Positions 4,427-16,696 of a DNA stretch of 64,000 nt are shown in pieces. Source of the stretch: Achromobacter pulmonis (GTDB lineage Bacteria > Pseudomonadota > Gammaproteobacteria > Burkholderiales > Burkholderiaceae_B); the NCBI RefSeq assembly GCF_902859765.1, contig NZ_CADIJV010000006.1, positions 124,001 to 188,000 on the forward strand, in the 5' to 3' direction. The position numbers and the translations under genes are program-made. The notes beneath the pieces are model-generated. The model worked only from the letters and a program-made list of their open reading frames with translations, was not told the DNA's origin and did not search any database. Position 1 is the first letter of the stretch, and each line of letters opens with the position of its first letter.

Positions 4427-5344
4427 CTATTTCGCCGACTTGATGCCGTTCAGCGTCTTGAAGCAGACGTCACGCGTCAGCGTCAGGAACTCGCCGATAT
4501 ACGAGGCATCGGTGTCCTCGCTGCGCACGGTGGCGTACAGGGTACGCCACACCCCCTGCGGCCCCAGGCGGCACAGCCGCAGCCAACCCTGGTTCATGTA
4601 TTCGGTCAGGGCCCAGTTGGGCAGGGCCGCTACGCCGCGGTTGCTCGCCACCAATTGCGCGATGATCGGCGTCAATTCCGCCTTGCGGATGGCTGCCGGC
4701 TCGACGTCGGCGGGGTCCAGGAATGCGGTGAAGACATCCAGGCGCTGCTTGTCGACCGGATAGGTGATGAGCGTCTGGTCCGCCAATTGGTCCGGCATGA
4801 TGAACTTGTTGCCGGCCAGCGGATTGGATTCGGACACGGCCAGCACCAGTTCGTATTTGAACAGCGGCAGGTACTCGACGGCATCGAGCGGTTGGGGATC
4901 GGACGTAATGACCAGGTCCAGGTCGCCGCGCACCAGCGCCGGCAGTGGGGCGAACGAAAACGCGGCCGACAGGTCCAGCGCCACGTCCGGCCATTGCGCG
5001 CGGAAGGCGTCGAGCGCCGGCATCAGCCACTGGAAGCAGGAATGGCAATCGATGGCCAGGTGCAGGCGACCGGTGCGGCCGGCGGCCAGCCGCTGCAGTT
5101 CGCGTTCGGTGGCGCGGATGCGTGGCAGGACCTCATCGGCCAGCGCCAGCACGCGCAGCCCCGCGGTGGTCAGGCGGGCCGGCCGGGTGCGGCGGTTCAG
5201 CAGCGGCGTGCCGAGCCGGGTCTCCAGGTCTCGCAATTGATGCGACAGGGCCGACTGGGTCAGGTGCAGGCGTTCGGCGGCCTCTTGCAGGCTGCCCCCT
5301 TCTCGGATGGCGGTGAGCGTTTCAAGGTGGCGGATTTCCAGCAT
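4427..5344 (-). CDS. metR: LysR-type regulator of methionine genes
   Basis: MetR, 305 residues, activates metE and related genes with homocysteine as co-inducer in enterobacteria. The N-terminal winged HTH (residues 1-60) reads MLEIRHLETL then LHLTQSALSHQLRDLE, very close to E. coli MetR, and the rest is the LysR co-inducer domain. The ATG at 5344 gives the family N-terminus; an ATG 39 bases upstream would add 13 unconserved residues. It is divergent from metE with a 206-bp shared control region, the same arrangement as in enterobacteria. Confidence 0.9.
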   Translation of the reverse strand: MLEIRHLETLTAIREGGSLQEAAERLHLTQSALSHQLRDLETRLGTPLLNRRTRPARLTTAGLRVLALADEVLPRIRATERELQRLAAGRTGRLHLAIDCHSCFQWLMPALDAFRAQWPDVALDLSAAFSFAPLPALVRGDLDLVITSDPQPLDAVEYLPLFKYELVLAVSESNPLAGNKFIMPDQLADQTLITYPVDKQRLDVFTAFLDPADVEPAAIRKAELTPIIAQLVASNRGVAALPNWALTEYMNQGWLRLCRLGPQGVWRTLYATVRSEDTDASYIGEFLTLTRDVCFKTLNGIKSAK

Positions 5345-5445
5345 GGGGCGACGGCTGTGAAGGTGGCGCGGCAGGCCGGGCAAGACGGCGTGCGCGGGCG
5401 CCGGGGCTGTCCCGTCCCTGGGGGCGGGCGTGGAGCTTTATTGTA

Positions 5446-5458: not shown

Positions 5459-5550
5459 TATTATGGATGTAGACATTGATTTTGATTCATTTTGATTTGG
5501 CGGCAGAATAGCCTTCACATGAACAAATTTTGTACAACAACGGTGTTGCC

Positions 5551-7848
5551 ATGACTACGATTCATAATTTGGGGTTCCCCCGCATCGGTGCCCAGCGCGA
5601 ATTGAAGCGCGCGGTCGAAGCCTATTGGGCCGGCAAGCAGGGCGGCGATGCGCTGGAGCAGACCGGCCGCGAATTGCGCGCCCGGCACTGGCAGGTGCAG
5701 GCCGCCGCCGGCGTCAGGTTCGTCCCCGTGGGTGATTTCGCCTGGTACGACCAGATCCTGGAATGGACCACGCTGCTGGGCGCCGTGCCCGCGCGCTTTG
5801 GCCAGAAGGACAGCGAGCCGGTCTCGCTGGATACGCTGTTCCGCATGGGCCGCGGCCGCGCCCCGTCGGGCAAGCCCGCCGCGGCCTGCGAAATGACCAA
5901 GTGGTTCGACACCAACTACCACTACATCGTGCCGGAACTGGTGCCGGGCCAGACCTTCCGCATCGCCCGTGAATCGCTTTTCGAGCAGATCCAGGAAGCC
6001 CAGGCGCTGGGCCACGCCGTCAAACCGGTGATCCCGGGCCCGCTGACCTGGCTGTTCCTGGGCAAGGGCGATGCTTTCGCCGACGGCGCCGCCGACGCGG
6101 CCAAGCTGCAACTGCTGGCCAACCTGGTGCCGGTGTACCAGGAAGTGCTGGCGCGCTTTGCCAAGCTCGGCGTTGAGTGGGTGCAGATCGACGAGCCCAT
6201 CCTGGTACTGGACCTGCCGCAGGCCTGGCGCGATGCCTTCAAGCAGGTATATGCCTCGCTGTCGGCGAGCCCGGTCAAACTGCTGGCGGCCACCTATTTC
6301 GATGGGCTGAAGGACAATCTCGGCACCGCCCTGGGCCTGCCGGTGGCCGGCCTGCACGTGGATCTGGTGCGCGCCCCCGAACAGTTGGCCGGGGTGCTGG
6401 CCGGCCTGGGCGCGGACAAGGTGCTGTCCGCCGGCGTCATCAATGGCCGCAACATCTGGCGCACCGACCTGGACGCCGCCCTTGCCACGCTGGCTCCGGT
6501 CAAGCAGCAGTTGGGCGAACGCCTGTGGCTGGCGCCGTCGTGCTCGTTGCTGCATGTGCCGGTGGACCTGGCCAACGAAACCGAGCTGGACGCCGAGCTC
6601 AAGAGCTGGCTGTCGTTCGCCGCCCAGAAGCTGGAAGAATTGAGCCTGCTCGGCCGCGCCCTGGACAGCGCCACCGAGCCCGGCGTGCAGGACGGCCTGG
6701 CCAGGCAGCGTGCCGCCCTGGCCGCGCGCCGCTCGTCGACCCGCATCCACAACCCGGCCGTGGCGCAGCGCATGGCGGCGTCGGCCGGCGTTTCGCGTGA
6801 CCGCGCGCCGTTCGCCGGCCGCATCGCCCGCCAGCAGGAAGAACTGGGCCTGCCGGCATTCCCCACCACCACGATCGGCTCGTTCCCGCAGACCGCCGAG
6901 ATCCGCGCGCTGCGCCGCGACTGGAAGTCGGGCGCGCTGACGGACTCGGCCTACGAGAGCGCCATCCGCAAGGAAATCGAGGAGGTGATCCGCTTCCAGG
7001 AGAAGGTCGGCCTGGACGTGCTGGTGCATGGCGAGCCCGAGCGCAACGACATGGTGGAGTACTTTGGCGAGCTGCTGGCGGGCTTTGCCTTCACCAGGAA
7101 CGGCTGGGTGCAGAGCTACGGCTCGCGTTGCGTCAAGCCGCCGATCATCTTCGGTGACGTGGCCCGCCCCGCGCCGATGACGGTGGGCTGGTCCTCCTAC
7201 GCCCAGTCGCTGACCGACAAGCCGGTCAAGGGCATGTTGACCGGTCCGGTCACCATCCTGCAGTGGTCGTTCGTGCGCGATGACCAGCCGCGCGAACAGA
7301 CCTGCCGCCAGCTGGCGCTGGCCCTGCGCGACGAAGTGGTGGACCTGGAAGCCGCCGGCATCAACGTCATCCAGATCGACGAACCGGCCATCCGCGAAGG
7401 CCTGCCGCTGCGCCGCGCCGATTGGCAGGCCTATCTGGACTGGGCGGTGGACTGCTTCCGCCTGGCCACCGCCGGCGTGCGCGACGAGACGCAGATCCAT
7501 ACCCACATGTGCTATTCGGAGTTCAACGACATCATCGAGTCGATCGCCGCCATGGATGCGGACGTGATCACCATCGAGACGTCGCGCTCCAACATGGAAC
7601 TGCTCAAGGCGTTCGAGGACTTCCGCTACCCCAACGACATCGGCCCGGGCGTGTACGACATCCACTCGCCCAACGTGCCGGAAGTGGACTGGATGGTCGG
7701 CCTGATGCAGAAGGCGGCCGCCCGCCTGCCCAGAGAGCGCCTCTGGGTGAACCCGGATTGCGGCTTGAAGACCCGTGCCTGGCCCGAAACCGAAGCGGCG
7801 CTGATCGGCATGGTGCAAGCCGCTCGCGCGCTGCGCGAAGCCGTCTGA
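5551..7848 (+). CDS. metE: Cobalamin-independent methionine synthase
   Basis: MetE, 765 residues (E. coli 753), transfers a methyl group from 5-methyltetrahydropteroyltri-glutamate to homocysteine using zinc, without B12. The N-terminal half begins [13 protein letters not shown]; the C-terminal catalytic half contains [29 protein letters not shown], the zinc-ligand region [12 protein letters not shown] and a second cysteine in [11 protein letters not shown]. The ATG at 5551 matches the family start; 21 bases upstream is an alternative ATG. Likely activated by MetR from the divergent gene. Confidence 0.97.
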
Positions 7849-7928
7849 AACGCGGCGGCCGGCCGGGCCGCCGCACGGATGCCGCCCGGCGGTCGCGCCG
7901 CCGTGGCCGGACCAGCCCATCTCCCTCT

Positions 7929-7963
7929 GTGTCGCGCGCCATGCGCGGCACGGGGGTTTTTTT
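7929..7963 (+). terminator. Intrinsic terminator after metE
   Basis: A 9-bp stem GTGTCGCGC / GCGCGGCAC (7929-7937 with 7943-7951, one U-G pair) and a 5-base loop is followed by GGGGG and seven T. It separates metE from the downstream synthetase gene, which therefore needs its own promoter. Confidence 0.6.
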
Positions 7964-7984
7964 CGTCCGCGCCGGAACGAAATC

Positions 7985-10900
7985 ATGCGGCACGGGTCAA
8001 TAGGCGAACATCCCATTTCCCGGCGCTGCGCCGTACCTATGATTCTCCAAGGCCCCTATCGGCCGGATCTGCTGCAAGCGGAAACGTTGCCCGATATTCT
8101 GGAAGCCACGATCCTGCGGTGTCCCGCCGCCATCGCCATCCATTGGCTGGATCAATCCCTGACCTATGAAGACCTCGGACGCCGCGCCGACCTGGCCGCG
8201 CACCACCTGATCGAAGCGGGCGTGCGGCCCGGCGATATCGTTGGCCTGTGCCTGCCGCGCGGCGACGAACTGCTGGTGATGCAGGCCGCCATCGCCAAGG
8301 CCGGCGCCGCCTGGCTGCCGTTCGAGTCCGACACCCCGCCCGAGCGCATGCTGGTCTGCCTGCAGGACGCCGGTTCGCGCGGCCTGGTGGCCGGGGGAGA
8401 GGTGCGCCTGGACGGCTTGGCCACCTGGACACCCTGGGAACTGTCGGCGCCGGTCGAGGGCGCCCTGTGCCGCCGGGCGGGGCTGTCGCCCGACCATCCC
8501 GCCTATGTGATCTATACCTCGGGCTCCACCGGCAAGCCCAAGGGCGTGCCGATCAGCCAGGCCAGCATTTGCCATTTCCTGCGCAGCGAAAACGAAGTGC
8601 TGGGCGTGCGCCACGGCGACAAGGTCTACCAGGGGTTTTCGGTCGCTTTCGACATGTCGTTCGAGGAAATCTGGATCAGCTACCTGGTGGGCGCCACCTT
8701 GTGGGTGGCGCCCAAGATGCTGACCACCGACCCCGAGGCCTTGCCCGATGCCCTGGCGCGCGAGGGCGTGACGGTGTTGCACGCGGTGCCGACGCTGCTG
8801 GCGCTGTTCGCGCGTGACGTGCCGGGCCTGCGCATCGTCAACCTGGGCGGCGAGATGTGCCCGGAGTTTCTGGTGCAGCGCTGGGCCACGCCCGGCCGGC
8901 GCCTGTTCAACACCTACGGCCCGACCGAGACGACCGTGTCGGCCAGTCTGGCCGAACTGCTGCCTGGCCAACCCGTGACCATCGGCACGCCGCTGCCCAA
9001 CTACGGCATGCTGATCCGCGGCGAGGACGGCGCGGTGCTGCCGCAAGGCCAGACCGGTGAGCTCTGTATCACCGGCCCGGGCGTGGCCGGCGGCTACCTG
9101 GGGCGGCCGGAACTGACGGCCGAGAAGTTCCTGGCCAATCCCCGTCCCACGGGCGAGCACGACACCCGCATGTATCGCAGCGGCGACCTGGCGCGCATCG
9201 ACGAGAACGGCCAGATCCAATGCCTGGGCCGCAGCGATGATCAGGTCAAGGTGCGCGGCTTTCGTGTCGAGCTGGGCGAGATCGAGGCCGCGCTGTACCG
9301 GCAGGCTGGCGTCGGCGCGGCCGCCGTGGTGTTGCGGGATCTGGCCGGCATCGAGCAATTGGTGGCGTTCCTGACGCCGGAGGGCGATGCGCGGCTCGAT
9401 CCGCACGCGCTGCGCGCGGCGCTGGCGGCCGAACTGCCCGCCTACATGATCCCGGCCCGCTTCGAGCTGGTGGCCGACGTGCCGCGCCTGACCTCGGGCA
9501 AGATCGACCGCAAGGCCCTGAAGGCGCGCGAGCTGGCTACCGCGTCCGAGCCCAGCGGCGAGGACGACACCCCGGTTTCGCCCGCCGAACACGCCTTGTT
9601 CGAGGCCTTGCGGCCCTTGTTCCCGGGCCAGCCGCTGCGGCTGGCGAGCGATTTCTTCCGCGACCTGGGCGGCCATTCGCTGCTGGCGGCGCGGCTGGTG
9701 TCCTCGCTGCGCAAACATCCACAGTTCTCGGCGCTGACCATGCACGAGCTCTACCAGCATTCGGTGCTGGGGGCGCTGGCGGCCCGGCTGGACGCGCTGG
9801 CGGCCGAATCGGCGGTCGCGGCGGCGCCCGTCCAGCAGGCGCCGATCGAGCGCGTGCCGCAATGGCGCCGCTGGGCCTGTGGCCTGGCGCAGTTGGCGGC
9901 GTTGCCGCTGCTGATCGGCGTGCGCATGCTGATCTGGCTGACGCCATTCTTCACCTATCACTATTTCACCGGCGACGAGGGCGATTCGGTGTGGCGCGCG
10001 GTGGCGCTGTCGATCGCCAGCTACCTGGCCTGCAATCTGCTCAGTTTCGGCGTGGCGGTGGTCTGCAAATGGGGCATTCTGGGCCGGCTCAAGGCGGGCC
10101 GCTATCCGCTCTACGGCTGGACTTTCTACCGCTGGTGGCTGGTCGACCGCATCTTCGACATTCCGCCGGCGCACCTGCTGGCGGGGTCGCCGTTGCAGGC
10201 CTGGTATCTGCGGGCGCTGGGCGCGCGCATCGGCCGCGATACCGCCATCAGCCGCATTTCGGTGCGCGCCCCGGACCTGCTGACGGTGGGTGACGGGGCC
10301 AGCATCGGCGCCGCCGTGAACCTGGAGAACTTCGAGGTGCGCGGCGCGCACTGGGAAGTCGGGCCCATCACGCTGGGTGAGAATGCCTACGTCGGCTCCT
10401 ACGCGGTGCTGCAGGGCGACGTCGTGATCGAGGCCGACGGCCGGCTCGAGGGCCTGTCATCGCTGTCCGCCGGCTCCCGCATCCCGGCGGGCCAGATCTG
10501 GACCGGGGCGCCGGCGCGGCAGGATCCGCAGGCGCGCGCCCCGGAACTGCCGCCGCGTCCGGCGCGCGAAGACCGTTGGGCGCGCCTGGACGTGTTGGCC
10601 TACGCGGCCGGCGGCACGCTGATCGCGGCACTGTTCTTCATGCCGGTGTTCCCGAGTTTCGTGCTGATCGACTGGATCGACGCGCGCTGGCTCGACCTGA
10701 TGGGCTCACGGGTCTGGTGGCCCAACGCATTCCTGGCCTATCTGCTGCTGGCGCTGCCGGCCAGTGCTCTGCTGTTGTTGCTGACGGTGCTGGTGTCCGC
10801 GATGCTGCGCTGGGCACTGTTGCCGCGCCTGGCAAGCGGCCGCTGGCCGGTCTATGGCCAGATCTACCTGCGACGCTGGCTGACCAACCAGATCCAGGAG

Positions 10901-12010
10901 TCCAGCCTGAGCGTGCTGCACGGCCTGTATGCTTCCCTTTATGCCGGTACCTGGTACCGGCTGCTGGGCGCCAAGGTCGGGCGGGGTACTGAAATCTCTA
11001 CCGCCATGGGCATCGTGCCCGACATGCTGACGCTGGGCCGCGATAGCTTCATCGCCGACGGCGTGATGCTGGGCGACGAGGAGATCGACCGCGGCTGGAT
11101 GACCATGCGGCCCACCGTGATCGGCAACCGCAGCTTTGTCGGCAACGGCGCCTATGTGCCGGATGGCTCGGTGTTGCCCGACGACGTATTGATCGGGGTG
11201 CAGAGCCGGGCGCCGGCCAACGCCCGCATGGCCAGCGGCCAGACCTGGCTGGGCAATCCGCCGCTGGCGCTGCCGGCGCGCGAGCAGGCGGCGGGTTTTC
11301 CCCCGCACCTGACCTTCCGCCCCAGCCCGGGCCGCAAGGTGGCGCGCGGCGCCGTCGAGCTGATGCGCATGATCCTGCCGCTGGCGGTGGTCATCGCGGT
11401 GGGGTACCTGACGGTCATGAAGGTCATCCCGATCGCGGCGCGCGAGGGCTTCTTGGCCGCGTTCGACGAGTTGATGCTGGCCGGCGTGCTGTACGGGGTC
11501 GGCACCTTCCTGTTCCTGGTGTTGCTCAAGTGGCTGCTGATCGGCCGCTACCGGCCGCGCGCCGAGCCCATGTGGACGCCATTCGTGTGGAAGAGCGAAG
11601 CCGTCACCAGCCTGTACGAGTCGATTGCCGTGCCCAACTTCTTCAATTTCCTGCGCGCCACACCCTGGCTGCCGCTGGCGCTGCGCTGCATGGGCGCGCG
11701 CATTGGCAAGCGCGTGTTCATGGATACCACCGATGTCACCGAGTACGACTGCGTATCAATTGGGGACGATACTGTCCTGCATGCCTGGTCGGGGCCGCAG
11801 ACCCATCTGTTCGAGGACCGCGTCATGAAAATCGGGCAGGTCCGGATCGGCAACGGAGTCAACGTCGGTCCGCGCAGCACCATCCTGTACGACACCCGGG
11901 TCGAGGACGGCGCGCGGCTGGGGCCGCTGACCCTGGTGCTCAAGGGCGAGAGCATTCCGGCCGGGCAGGCCTGGATGGGCAGTCCGGCCACCCCGTGGAC
12001 GCAGCAGTGA
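7985..12010 (+). CDS. Pls/PosA-type membrane non-ribosomal peptide synthetase
   Basis: A 1341-residue single-module synthetase. The adenylation domain (about 30-515) has YVIYTSGSTGKPKGV at 174, YGPTETT at 311, YRSGDLARI, and the catalytic Lys506 in SGKIDRKAL. A carrier domain follows with phosphopantetheine Ser565 in LGGHSLL. Then three membrane pairs (about 628-700, 865-945, 1127-1187) alternate with three left-handed beta-helix hexapeptide domains. No thioesterase or HHxxxDG condensation motif is seen. This order and length match epsilon-poly-L-lysine synthetase Pls (about 1319 residues), which makes an isopeptide homopolymer at the membrane. Aligning the pocket to GrsA by eye gives D-M-E-H-N-G-T-V-S-K; the Asp binds the alpha-amino group, and Glu at the third position favours a basic side chain. 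Substrate and product are inference. ATG 8039 (1323 residues) is an alternative start. Confidence 0.88.
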   Translation: MRHGSIGEHPISRRCAVPMILQGPYRPDLLQAETLPDILEATILRCPAAIAIHWLDQSLTYEDLGRRADLAAHHLIEAGVRPGDIVGLCLPRGDELLVMQAAIAKAGAAWLPFESDTPPERMLVCLQDAGSRGLVAGGEVRLDGLATWTPWELSAPVEGALCRRAGLSPDHPAYVIYTSGSTGKPKGVPISQASICHFLRSENEVLGVRHGDKVYQGFSVAFDMSFEEIWISYLVGATLWVAPKMLTTDPEALPDALAREGVTVLHAVPTLLALFARDVPGLRIVNLGGEMCPEFLVQRWATPGRRLFNTYGPTETTVSASLAELLPGQPVTIGTPLPNYGMLIRGEDGAVLPQGQTGELCITGPGVAGGYLGRPELTAEKFLANPRPTGEHDTRMYRSGDLARIDENGQIQCLGRSDDQVKVRGFRVELGEIEAALYRQAGVGAAAVVLRDLAGIEQLVAFLTPEGDARLDPHALRAALAAELPAYMIPARFELVADVPRLTSGKIDRKALKARELATASEPSGEDDTPVSPAEHALFEALRPLFPGQPLRLASDFFRDLGGHSLLAARLVSSLRKHPQFSALTMHELYQHSVLGALAARLDALAAESAVAAAPVQQAPIERVPQWRRWACGLAQLAALPLLIGVRMLIWLTPFFTYHYFTGDEGDSVWRAVALSIASYLACNLLSFGVAVVCKWGILGRLKAGRYPLYGWTFYRWWLVDRIFDIPPAHLLAGSPLQAWYLRALGARIGRDTAISRISVRAPDLLTVGDGASIGAAVNLENFEVRGAHWEVGPITLGENAYVGSYAVLQGDVVIEADGRLEGLSSLSAGSRIPAGQIWTGAPARQDPQARAPELPPRPAREDRWARLDVLAYAAGGTLIAALFFMPVFPSFVLIDWIDARWLDLMGSRVWWPNAFLAYLLLALPASALLLLLTVLVSAMLRWALLPRLASGRWPVYGQIYLRRWLTNQIQESSLSVLHGLYASLYAGTWYRLLGAKVGRGTEISTAMGIVPDMLTLGRDSFIADGVMLGDEEIDRGWMTMRPTVIGNRSFVGNGAYVPDGSVLPDDVLIGVQSRAPANARMASGQTWLGNPPLALPAREQAAGFPPHLTFRPSPGRKVARGAVELMRMILPLAVVIAVGYLTVMKVIPIAAREGFLAAFDELMLAGVLYGVGTFLFLVLLKWLLIGRYRPRAEPMWTPFVWKSEAVTSLYESIAVPNFFNFLRATPWLPLALRCMGARIGKRVFMDTTDVTEYDCVSIGDDTVLHAWSGPQTHLFEDRVMKIGQVRIGNGVNVGPRSTILYDTRVEDGARLGPLTLVLKGESIPAGQAWMGSPATPWTQQ

Positions 12011-12078
12011 GCTGGCCGATGCCGCCGCGGGAGCGCCCGTGGCGCGCACGTTGACGGTCGGGGCAGGGCGGGCTGCGC

Positions 12079-12084
12079 TATACT
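12079..12084 (+). promoter_or_regulatory. Possible -10 box upstream of the DUF2889 gene
   Basis: TATACT lies 59 bases before the preferred start codon of the next gene. A TTGACG at 12051-12056 is 22 bases upstream, too far for a standard -35 spacing, so only the -10 element is suggestive. If real, it would start transcription of DUF2889-sucC-sucD. Confidence 0.3.
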
Positions 12085-12143
12085 TTGAAGGTTTTGTTGC
12101 CGCGCACCATACGCCGGCCGTCTCTGCCCCGCAGGCCCCAAGC

Positions 12144-12746
12144 ATGCCCTTGCCACCGCCGGATTGTCCTCGCCAGCCGCTGCACACGCGTTCCATACGC
12201 GTGCAGTCGTATGCGCGCGATGACGGCAACTGGGATCTGGAAGCCGAACTCATCGACGTCAAGGCGTACGATTTTCCCAAGCGCGACGGCGAGATGTTCA
12301 AGGCGGGGCAACCCATCCACCATATGCACCTGCGCATCACCATCGATGGCGATTTCACCATCGTGGCGGCGCAGGCCGTCTATGATGCCGCTCCCTATGG
12401 CGAGCATTGCATGGCCATCGAATCCGCCTACGCTGGCCTGATCGGCATGAACCTGCTCAAGGGGTTCCGCCGCCAGGTCAAGGAGCGCTTCGGCCATGTC
12501 GAGGGCTGTACGCACATGACCGAACTGTCGCAGGTGCTTCCCACCGCGGCGGTGCAGACCATGGCCAACCGCCGGCGGCAGGAAAGCAACCCGAACCGGC
12601 GTCCATTCCAACTGGACGGCTGTCATGCGCTGAGCACCGACGGCCCGGTGGTGGCTGAGCACTACCCCAAGTGGTACACCGGGGGCAGCGCTGAGGCATC
12701 GGCCGATTCGACCTCCGATTCACCTTCTCTTTCTCATACGTCCTGA
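12144..12746 (+). CDS. DUF2889 domain-containing protein
   Basis: A 200-residue cytosolic protein of unknown function. The recognisable DUF2889 core covers residues 12-150 and includes LHTRSIRVQSYARDDGNWD, the IDVKAYDFPKRDGE stretch, HHMHLRITIDGDF and GCTHMTELSQVLPTAAVQ with a His and Cys that could bind metal. The ATG at 12144 gives a compact protein that starts close to the domain; an upstream GTG at 12039 would add 35 residues overlapping a promoter-like element. Its stop is 10 bases before sucC, so it is probably co-transcribed with the succinyl-CoA synthetase genes. No signal peptide or membrane segment is visible. Confidence 0.8.
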   Translation: MPLPPPDCPRQPLHTRSIRVQSYARDDGNWDLEAELIDVKAYDFPKRDGEMFKAGQPIHHMHLRITIDGDFTIVAAQAVYDAAPYGEHCMAIESAYAGLIGMNLLKGFRRQVKERFGHVEGCTHMTELSQVLPTAAVQTMANRRRQESNPNRRPFQLDGCHALSTDGPVVAEHYPKWYTGGSAEASADSTSDSPSLSHTS

Positions 12747-12756
12747 CAGGTAACAC

Positions 12757-13917
<1,161 letters not shown>

Positions 13918-13922
13918 ATATA

Positions 13923-13998
13923 TGCCCCCACGCCGCGCCCCTTCGTGGCTTGCTGCCCCCCGAGGGGGCGCTTTGCACCTTGGGGCGGCCCGGCGGTA
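13923..13998. repeat. GC-rich intergenic repeat between sucC and sucD
   Basis: The sucC-sucD gap is filled by a palindrome-rich sequence with the cores CCCCTTCGTGGCTTGCTG and GCCCCCCGAGGGGGCGC. Similar elements are scattered between genes in Bordetella and Achromobacter type genomes (general recollection), and two related copies lie at 35120-35218 and 36610-36690. It sits inside an operon, so it must be transcribed as RNA hairpins. Confidence 0.55.
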
Positions 13999-14022
13999 CA
14001 AAGAAAATCCAAGGATTCACAA

Positions 14023-14904
<882 letters not shown>

Positions 14905-15161: not shown

Positions 15162-15860
15162 ATGGAACTCAGTTCAGCGGCATTCTGGTTAGCGTTGCTC
15201 CAGATCATTTGGGTCAACATTCTGCTGTCGGGCGACAACGCCGTGGTCATTGCGCTGGCGGCGCGCTCGCTGCCGCCGGCGCAGCAAAAGAAAGCGATCG
15301 TGATCGGCTCGGCCGCCGCGATCATCATGCGTATCGTGCTGACGCTGGTCGCCGCCAAGCTGCTGATGTTGCCGTGGCTCAAGCTCATTGGCGCGCTGCT
15401 GCTGGTGTACATCGGCGTGACGCTGCTGTTGCCGGAAGGCGAGGAAGAGGGCGGCGGCAAGAATCATGGCAACTTGCTGACCGCGATCCGCACTATCATG
15501 ATTGCCGACTTGGTCATGAGCCTGGACAACGTGGTGGCCGTGGCCGCCGCGGCGATGGGCGACACGACCCTGCTGGTGCTGGGCCTGGCGATCAGCATTC
15601 CGTTGGTCATTTTCGGCAGCACGCTGCTGCTCAAGGTCATCGAGCGCTTCCCGCTCATCGTCTGGGTGGGCGCGGCGCTGCTGGGCTTCATCGCCGGTGA
15701 ATTGCTGGTGGGTGATCCGGCCTTGCAGGAACCGGTGGCGCGCATCGACGCGGCGCTGGGCGTGACGCAGCACAGCTTTGCCCTCATGACTGGGGTGCTG
15801 GGCGCGGTGTTGGTGCTGGCGATAGGTAAAGTTTTGCTGATGCGCCAGAAAGCTGACTGA
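15162..15860 (+). CDS. TerC family integral membrane protein (first copy)
   Basis: A 232-residue polytopic inner-membrane protein of the TerC family, associated with tellurite resistance and, in several bacteria, manganese export or metalation of exported proteins. The first helix contains the conserved WVNILLSGDNAVVIALAARS motif and the second half repeats it as IADLVMSLDNVVAVAAAAMG; both paired Asp-Asn motifs probably bind metal in the membrane. About seven helices are predicted. An AGAGAGG ribosome-binding sequence precedes the ATG. A second paralogue follows directly, and both share an 11-base upstream motif. Confidence 0.9.
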   Translation: MELSSAAFWLALLQIIWVNILLSGDNAVVIALAARSLPPAQQKKAIVIGSAAAIIMRIVLTLVAAKLLMLPWLKLIGALLLVYIGVTLLLPEGEEEGGGKNHGNLLTAIRTIMIADLVMSLDNVVAVAAAAMGDTTLLVLGLAISIPLVIFGSTLLLKVIERFPLIVWVGAALLGFIAGELLVGDPALQEPVARIDAALGVTQHSFALMTGVLGAVLVLAIGKVLLMRQKAD

Positions 15861-15950
15861 AAGCTGAACTACAATAATAAGTGGTTTTGAAGTAGGCCCG
15901 CCGCGTGCCTGGCGCGCGGCGGGCTGGCCGGCACGGGGCCGGCTTTTATT
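15859..15950 (+). promoter_or_regulatory. Shared motif and hairpins between the two terC genes
   Basis: GAAAGCTGAAC at 15859-15869 repeats exactly the 11-mer upstream of the first terC and here overlaps that gene's stop codon; TACAAT follows at 15870-15875. Then come a 10-bp stem GCCCGCCGCG/CGCGGCGGGC (15896-15905 with 15915-15924) and a terminator-like hairpin GCCGGC-N5-GCCGGC with TTTTATTTT (15927-15951). The last may end the first terC transcript or attenuate the second. Confidence 0.5.
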
Positions 15951-15976
15951 TTGATAAATGCCTTCGGGGGTTCAAA

Positions 15977-16696
15977 TTGCTTGAGTTTTTCCAGACGCTG
16001 AGTTGGGCAGCGGTATTCCAGATCATCCTCATCGACATTCTGCTCGGCGGCGACAACGCGGTGGTGATTGCGCTCGCATGTCGCAACCTGGAGCCCAAGC
16101 AGCGCATGCAGGGCATTCTGTGGGGTACGGCGGGCGCCATCCTGTTGCGCGTGGTCCTGATCGCCTTCGCCCTGACCCTGTTGTCGATCCCGTTCCTGAA
16201 GGTGGTGGGCGGCGCGCTGCTGGTGTGGATCGGCGTCAAGCTGCTGATTCCGGAGGATGACGGCCACGGCAACGTCAAGGGCGGCACATCCATCATTGCC
16301 GCCATCAAGACCATCATCATCGCCGACTTCGTGATGAGCCTGGACAACGTCATCGCCATCGCCGGCGCGGCCCAGAACGCCCACGCCGACCATCAGATCG
16401 GTCTGGTGATCTTCGGCCTGGTCGTGAGCGTGCCCATCATCATCTGGGGCAGCACGCTGGTCCTGAAACTGATCGACCGCTATCCGCTGGTGGTGACTTT
16501 TGGCGCGGCGCTGCTGGGCTGGATCGCGGGCGGCATGCTGATCACGGACGTGTTTGTCGAAAGTCAATTCGGCGTTCAGCCCACTGCGGTTAAAATCGGC
16601 GTAGAAATTTTCGGCGCCTTGCTCGTTGTTGTCCTTGGACGGTGGCTGGCAAGCCGCAAAACCGCCTCCAAGGAATCCGTACATGAGTCTGCGTAG
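15977..16696 (+). CDS. TerC family integral membrane protein (second copy)
   Basis: Paralogue of the preceding gene, 239 residues from the TTG at 15977, which gives MLEFFQTLSWAAVF, a typical TerC start; a longer frame from 15905 would run through the GC-rich hairpins and is unlikely. It keeps both motifs, ILLGGDNAVVIALACR and ADFVMSLDNVIAIAGA. Compared with the first copy it has a longer loop between the halves and a C-terminal tail rich in Lys/Ser. Expected role: manganese or other metal handling in the inner membrane. Its last codons overlap a 40-codon gene by 14 bases. Confidence 0.88.
   Translation: MLEFFQTLSWAAVFQIILIDILLGGDNAVVIALACRNLEPKQRMQGILWGTAGAILLRVVLIAFALTLLSIPFLKVVGGALLVWIGVKLLIPEDDGHGNVKGGTSIIAAIKTIIIADFVMSLDNVIAIAGAAQNAHADHQIGLVIFGLVVSVPIIIWGSTLVLKLIDRYPLVVTFGAALLGWIAGGMLITDVFVESQFGVQPTAVKIGVEIFGALLVVVLGRWLASRKTASKESVHESA

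Follow-up and report, generated by a model that had tools for sequence, protein, structure and literature searches.

We examined a 64,000-nucleotide stretch of Achromobacter pulmonis DNA (NCBI RefSeq assembly GCF_902859765.1, contig NZ_CADIJV010000006.1, positions 124,001 to 188,000 of the forward strand), here referred to as the window, in which a gene for a predicted PosA-like synthetase is found between metE and sucCD. The open reading frame at 7985-12010 on the plus strand (1341 amino acids) was confirmed in the window. An earlier note, made from the sequence alone, had taken this whole frame as the gene; the frame is real, but the coding sequence more likely starts at 8039, since the methionine matching Met19 of the window (MILQGPYRPDLL or a close variant) was kept in 23/23 congener loci, while their reading frames diverge 5′ of that position. 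Thus, 8039-12010, encoding 1323 amino acids and a stop, is the most likely coding sequence. Residue numbers refer to the translation of the frame opening at 7985 (P0001), in which Met19 lies at 8039. The features of the gene are as follows.

8039..12010, plus strand: PosA-like synthetase coding sequence (open frame, Met kept in 23/23 congeners, TIGR02353 at 701 bits)
8108..9502, plus strand: adenylation domain, residues about 42-506 (PF00501/PF13193, alignment to 8G95)
9632..9790, plus strand: carrier (PP-binding) domain with LGGHSL (PF00550), Ser565 at 9677-9679
9887..11989, plus strand: C-terminal polymerisation region (TIGR02353 positions 2-695, six hydrophobic segments)
10049..10525, plus strand: repeat 1, beta-helix-like, residues 689-847 (hhalign; beta-helix match, E 4e-5)
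10790..11272, plus strand: repeat 2, beta-helix-like, residues 936-1096 (hhalign; YrdA match, E 3.4e-9)
11495..11992, plus strand: repeat 3, beta-helix-like, residues 1171-1336 (hhalign; weak gamma-carbonic-anhydrase matches, best E 0.003)
11804..11806, plus strand: His1274 in QTHL-x2-DR, invariant in 90 rows, candidate catalytic base

Domain architecture of the synthetase

The protein matched TIGR02353 (NCBIfam 'Pls/PosA family non-ribosomal peptide synthetase') with 701.1 bits, against a cut-off of 423.1, over positions 2-695 of 695. Pfam matches comprised AMP-binding (PF00501), AMP-binding_C (PF13193), a PP-binding carrier (PF00550) and hexapeptide repeats. Condensation and thioesterase families were absent from the Pfam matches of the protein, HHxxxDG was not found in it, and the single GxSxG-like pattern tried gave no match. 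One adenylation (A) and one carrier (T) domain are therefore present with neither condensation nor thioesterase domain, as the earlier note had read from the letters. Among 25 orthologues, differences at codon positions 1, 2 and 3 amounted to 8.6, 5.7 and 30.5%, respectively, which indicates purifying selection on the gene; together with the TIGR02353 score, these figures exclude chance similarity. Ser565 of the carrier was invariant across 90 aligned rows. The row from Arthrobacter (L181), with 867 amino acids before a stop, was excluded from this conservation count and from the tree described below.

A simple hydropathy scan detected six hydrophobic stretches in the C-terminal part, at residues 634-655, 675-699, 868-895, 920-938, 1119-1148 and 1163-1181, which form three pairs. 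The three soluble segments among them were homologous to each other in hhalign, with probabilities of 99.6 (32% identity) for segments 1 and 2, 97.4 (20%) for 2 and 3, and 99.2 (27%) for 1 and 3. Left-handed beta-helix structures of the gamma-carbonic-anhydrase/YrdA type matched stretches of repeats 1, 2 and 3, with best E-values of about 4e-5, 3e-9 and 0.003. Pfam, hhalign and the hydropathy scan thus agree on the arrangement proposed in the earlier note, with an adenylation domain, a carrier, three beta-helix-like units and six membrane segments. No solved C-terminal region of Pls was found by the phmmer search. Within repeat 3, the QTHL-x2-DR motif around His1274 was invariant in the 90 rows, including the A-code and F-code enzymes described below, and His1274 aligned with a Phe of repeat 1 and with a Glu of repeat 2. 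We propose His1274 as a candidate catalytic base.

Pocket code and relation to PosA

The nearest solved adenylation domain was that of PosA from Acinetobacter baumannii (8G95-8G98), which Patel and Gulick crystallised with L-ornithine; their full-length enzyme produced delta-poly-L-ornithine in vitro (PMC10522769). Alignment to 8G95 gave the ten-residue pocket code D-M-E-H-N-G-T-V-S-K, at Asp223, Met224, Glu227, His266, Asn286, Gly288, Thr310, Val318, Ser319 and Lys506. All ten residues are identical to those of A. baumannii PosA, whose code positions D217-S313 are offset by six from the numbering used here; the A. baumannii core compared was the crystallised sequence (412/412 letters). The code that the earlier note had read by alignment to GrsA was therefore correct. 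For the structure alignment, 55 of 80 loci were taken. Among 81 rows, namely the window and the best 80 of 520 contig-scan matches, 77 carried DMEHNGTVSK (the window counted) and four DMEHNGSVSK (L107, an Achromobacter, and L121, L126 and L138). As the peptide FDMSFEE was one of the two scan patterns and only the best 80 of 520 were taken, these counts lean towards the Met code and cannot serve to estimate how frequent it is.

Over 99% of its length, the window protein showed 53.8% identity to A. baumannii PosA, with 60.0% in the A domain, 55.3% in the T domain and 53.1% in the C-terminal region. In a full-length tree of 25 rows (the window, 15 of the 80 scan loci and 9 of 10 further loci; a quick tree without bootstrap), one clade, comprising 17 proteobacterial rows and with an SH-aLRT support of 100, held both PosA and the window protein. 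Rows with an A-code (DAESIGTVVK) or an F-code, that is with Ala or Phe at code position 2, were outside this clade.

Position 2 of the code sets the length of the side chain, with Phe for diaminopropionate (Dap) or 2,4-diaminobutyrate (Dab), Met for ornithine and Ala for lysine (PMC10522769). Two rows fit this rule by their context: a diaminobutyrate transaminase comes after the F-code row L177, and an M1 peptidase after the A-code row L179. As the code and the clade of the window enzyme match PosA, rather than the Lys-type A-code or the Dab/Dap-type F-code rows, its substrate very probably narrows to L-ornithine. The earlier note had left lysine, ornithine and diaminobutyrate open; the basic diamino acid stood, and the choice among the three could be tightened. 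An enzyme of the same class with L-Lys or 2,4-diaminobutyrate as its main building block, making epsilon-poly-lysine or gamma-poly-Dab, appears improbable to us. The family makes all these products, and PosA itself bound L-Lys in the crystal and had modest activity on it, with M218A raising the kcat/KM for Lys nearly tenfold (PMC10522769). However, code position 2 is Met as in PosA, rather than Ala or Phe, the enzyme falls in the clade of PosA, which prefers ornithine over lysine more than 160-fold (PMC10522769), and no Dab transaminase was identified among the adjacent genes.

It is also conceivable that no free homopolymer is made, and that the acyltransferase-like C-terminal region adds one or a few ornithines to another amine, for instance of an envelope lipid or a polyamine. 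This would fit the relatedness in sequence of the C-terminal repeats to hexapeptide and gamma-carbonic-anhydrase beta-helix proteins, the lack of an exporter among those neighbours that could be identified, and the lack of a known product in the genus. We hold it to be very improbable, given that the family and the 53% identical C-terminal region are shared with PosA, which as purified full-length enzyme made 7-12-mers in vitro (PMC10522769).

Locus, distribution and expression

The surroundings of the gene in the window are as follows.

4427..5383, minus strand: metR, divergent from metE
5530..7848, plus strand: metE, housekeeping gene, upstream neighbour
7924..7956, plus strand: terminator-like hairpin with 15 pairs and a T run, after metE and before the synthetase gene
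7972..8002, plus strand: conserved upstream element, AACGA ... GTCAAT-like, promoter candidate
12039..12746, plus strand: open reading frame for a DUF2889 protein, downstream neighbour in the conserved DUF2889-sucC-sucD-terC-terC block
12757..13917, plus strand: sucC, downstream block
13945..14904, plus strand: sucD, downstream block

Both flanks are as given in the earlier note, which had placed the gene between metE and sucCD, except that the DUF2889 frame separates it from sucC. After sucCD, two genes for YjbE/TerC-family membrane proteins lie in tandem (15162-15860 and 15905-16696), the second being about 45% identical to the first in congener loci.

Of 43 genomes of the genus, 29 had a TIGR02353 match above the cut-off. 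The 24 loci read (the window and 23 congeners) all had the gene at the site between metE and DUF2889-sucCD. Five further genomes bear the gene; four of their loci were outside the 24, and one (G615) was cut by a contig end. In the latter, a broken copy was considered and rejected, as the short match stops 44 bases from the contig end, pointing to an assembly cut. Several species of the genus lack the gene: in 11 genomes without it, metE was directly followed by DUF2889-sucCD, and no gene remnant was detected at these 11 sites (best E 0.28). The flanks, recA-recX-metR/metE and DUF2889-sucCD-terC-terC, had the same genes with or without it, and thus the neighbours in Achromobacter, tried as a clue to its function, are uninformative. 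On a quick tree built from six flanking genes in 36 genomes, which cannot by itself tell gain from loss, the presence pattern needs six changes by parsimony, at least five of which are forced by well-supported branches. G029 and G034, incomplete at a contig end, were excluded from the loss count, and the congeners G174, G518 and G614-G617 were not on the tree. The window protein shared 95% identity with its counterparts in A. ruhlandii, A. dolens and A. insuavis.

The G+C fraction was 0.68-0.71 for the gene, 0.67-0.70 for metE and 0.63-0.64 for sucCD. Being like that of metE and above that of sucCD, it gave no sign of a recent plasmid or island origin.

Outside the genus, TIGR02353 was found in 13 of 200 genomes drawn from the family, nine of them from other genera; a draw of 399 genomes from the order yielded 17. 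Bordetella ansorpii carries the gene at the same site. A recent transfer into B. ansorpii was considered and set aside, as its gene showed 81-88% DNA identity to six Achromobacter sequences, about as its neighbours did (78-83% for the metE region and 86-87% for the sucC region); since the identities are so similar, shared descent fits as well. The B. ansorpii locus also has an extra open frame of 249 codons between metE and the posA-like gene (L090, 4858-5604). Among the best 80 of the 520 matches, the closest enzymes outside Achromobacter and B. ansorpii were from Iodobacter (69% identity, with further Iodobacter or other records at 67%) and Crenobacter (65%; rows L103-L105 and L109), while Oxalobacteraceae and Comamonadaceae rows were lower, at 56-60%. 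As the Iodobacter and Crenobacter enzymes are closer than other Burkholderiales rows, an old horizontal transfer into the Achromobacter line, followed mostly by losses, is suggested.

In 26 of 62 proteobacterial relatives outside Achromobacter, a gene of one and the same cluster followed within 34 bases downstream. Twelve members of this cluster were scanned, of which 10 were phosphopantetheinyl transferases (PPTases) over the Pfam cut-off, one matched below it (L141) and one had no match (L162). A PPTase was likewise at this position in Rhizobium and Sphingomonas. The genome of the window strain itself has four PPTase-superfamily matches. No other downstream gene recurs widely. The next clusters comprise 4-9 loci each among the 62, and their scanned representatives were Maf, a DUF2189 protein, an impB/mucB/samB polymerase, an AMP nucleosidase, a protein with GGDEF/EAL domains and another without a Pfam match; these were taken for unrelated neighbours.

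In all 25 upstream regions, AACGA was followed after about 13 bases by GTC(A/C)AT, with variable surroundings, and no sigma-70 match was found upstream by the consensus scan. Hairpin sites of this kind were not enriched in the stretch (3, against 2.2 expected by chance); the one at 7924-7956 has the longest stem. The hairpin trailing metE and the element kept in 25/25 upstream regions make it probable that the gene has its own promoter.

Interpretation and comparison with known systems

Taken together, we consider the gene product orthologous to PosA, and hence a membrane-bound delta-poly-L-ornithine synthetase, with a probability of about 0.85. The earlier note's proposal of a Pls-like synthetase of a cationic amino acid homopolymer is hence supported by TIGR02353, the domain order, the code and the 54% full-length identity to PosA. 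Several points weigh against this orthology or against its use in the window strain. The A domain is just 60% identical to that of PosA, which leaves, along with the modest L-Lys activity of PosA (PMC10522769), a minor or mixed substrate possible. Orthology cannot be read from the code alone, since a Sphingomonas row (L175) with the near-same code DMEHNGTVTK is 39% identical and outside the PosA clade. In the checks on the tree, PosA and four further rows stood out for an odd letter make-up, and the Sphingomonas and L177 rows for long branches. Within the clade, Achromobacter forms a lineage apart from the PosA branch. The repeated presence and absence changes in the genus show that the gene is dispensable. 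Finally, the left end of the upstream element reads TTGAACGA in 18 of 25 regions, but CCGGAACGA in the window, one of seven departing from it (L044 likewise carries GGAACGA there). Expression in the window strain is therefore uncertain, and a weakened promoter is possible.

The Sphingomonas enzyme just mentioned is encoded on a plasmid (L175, 2962-6969), adjoins a PPTase and an N-acetyltransferase, and may represent a convergent ornithine specificity.

The repeated presence and absence changes and the upstream departure bear on another explanation, according to which this strain has an intact gene that is silent or of no use to it, a relict heading to loss. It is compatible with orthology to PosA and is judged apart from it; we regard it as unlikely. 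In its favour are the at least five changes forced in the genus, the empty sites holding no remnant, and the departure of the window strain from TTGAACGA. The full-length frame, the retention of all code and carrier residues and the signature of purifying selection in 25 orthologues speak against it.

If the gene is a PosA orthologue, its adenylation domain would use ATP to activate L-ornithine. Asp223 would hold the alpha-amine of the substrate, Glu227, Thr310 and Ser319 its delta-amine, and Met224 would set a limit to side-chain length. Once the carrier has been phosphopantetheinylated by a PPTase from another locus of the genome, ornithine would be held as a thioester on Ser565. The pseudo-threefold beta-helix set in the membrane-embedded C-terminal region may stand in for the condensation and thioesterase domains, perhaps with His1274 in catalysis. 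Repeated attack by the delta-amine of one ornithine on the thioester of another would give a short cationic isopeptide oligomer. Its release, and a role such as the inhibition of fungi or competitors or a change in biofilm, may follow.

A wider scenario, which we put forward tentatively and consider rather doubtful, is that in Achromobacter and many other betaproteobacteria a stand-alone gene yields an envelope-associated or secreted ornithine isopeptide polycation. Its single acquisition, from a Chitinibacteraceae/Neisseriaceae-like source, would predate the divergence of Achromobacter and B. ansorpii. Kept at one chromosomal site and repeatedly discarded, the gene would switch competition or biofilm behaviour at the level of species, unnoticed so far in this genus of opportunists.

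Neither the class of the enzyme nor the ornithine code nor the likely product is new (PMC10522769 and the NCBI family model), and the novelty is smaller than the earlier note supposed. No published account of the enzyme or its product in this genus came up in a search whose coverage ended short of most subscription journals and of supplementary Table 2 of PMC10522769, which possibly names the genus. In the part of the literature seen, A. baumannii (PMC10522769) and a fungus (PMC7179176) were the sole organisms outside actinomycetes from which polycations of this kind are reported. New here are the firmer call of the substrate, the corrected start, the presence and absence pattern at a fixed site, the PPTase found downstream in relatives and the motif in repeat 3. 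If the reading is true, Achromobacter species, some of which are opportunists in cystic fibrosis lungs, can make an ornithine polycation. The one-site pattern would offer natural species pairs for studying roles in competition, biofilm and tolerance to host peptides, and the motif with His1274 a concrete handle on the C-terminal polymerisation, the mechanism of which was left open in PMC10522769.

Compared with known systems, the window enzyme is like PosA in its domain order, ten-residue code, family C-terminal region and single gene without clear operon partners. It differs in its site between metE and DUF2889-sucCD and in its own subclade nearest Iodobacter and Crenobacter. With the epsilon-poly-L-lysine synthetase Pls of Streptomyces (A domain 7WEW), for which the A-code rows L179 and L180 served as stand-ins, it shares the architecture of A, T and C-terminal region and the Glu at code position 3, whereas these rows are about 34% identical, carry DAESIGTVVK, lie outside the PosA clade and, in L179, adjoin an M1 peptidase. 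The poly-diaminobutyrate and poly-diaminopropionate synthetases (F-code rows L176-L178) have the same family and architecture, but their code opens with D-F-E, their identity is 36-38%, and a diaminobutyrate transaminase is adjacent in L177.

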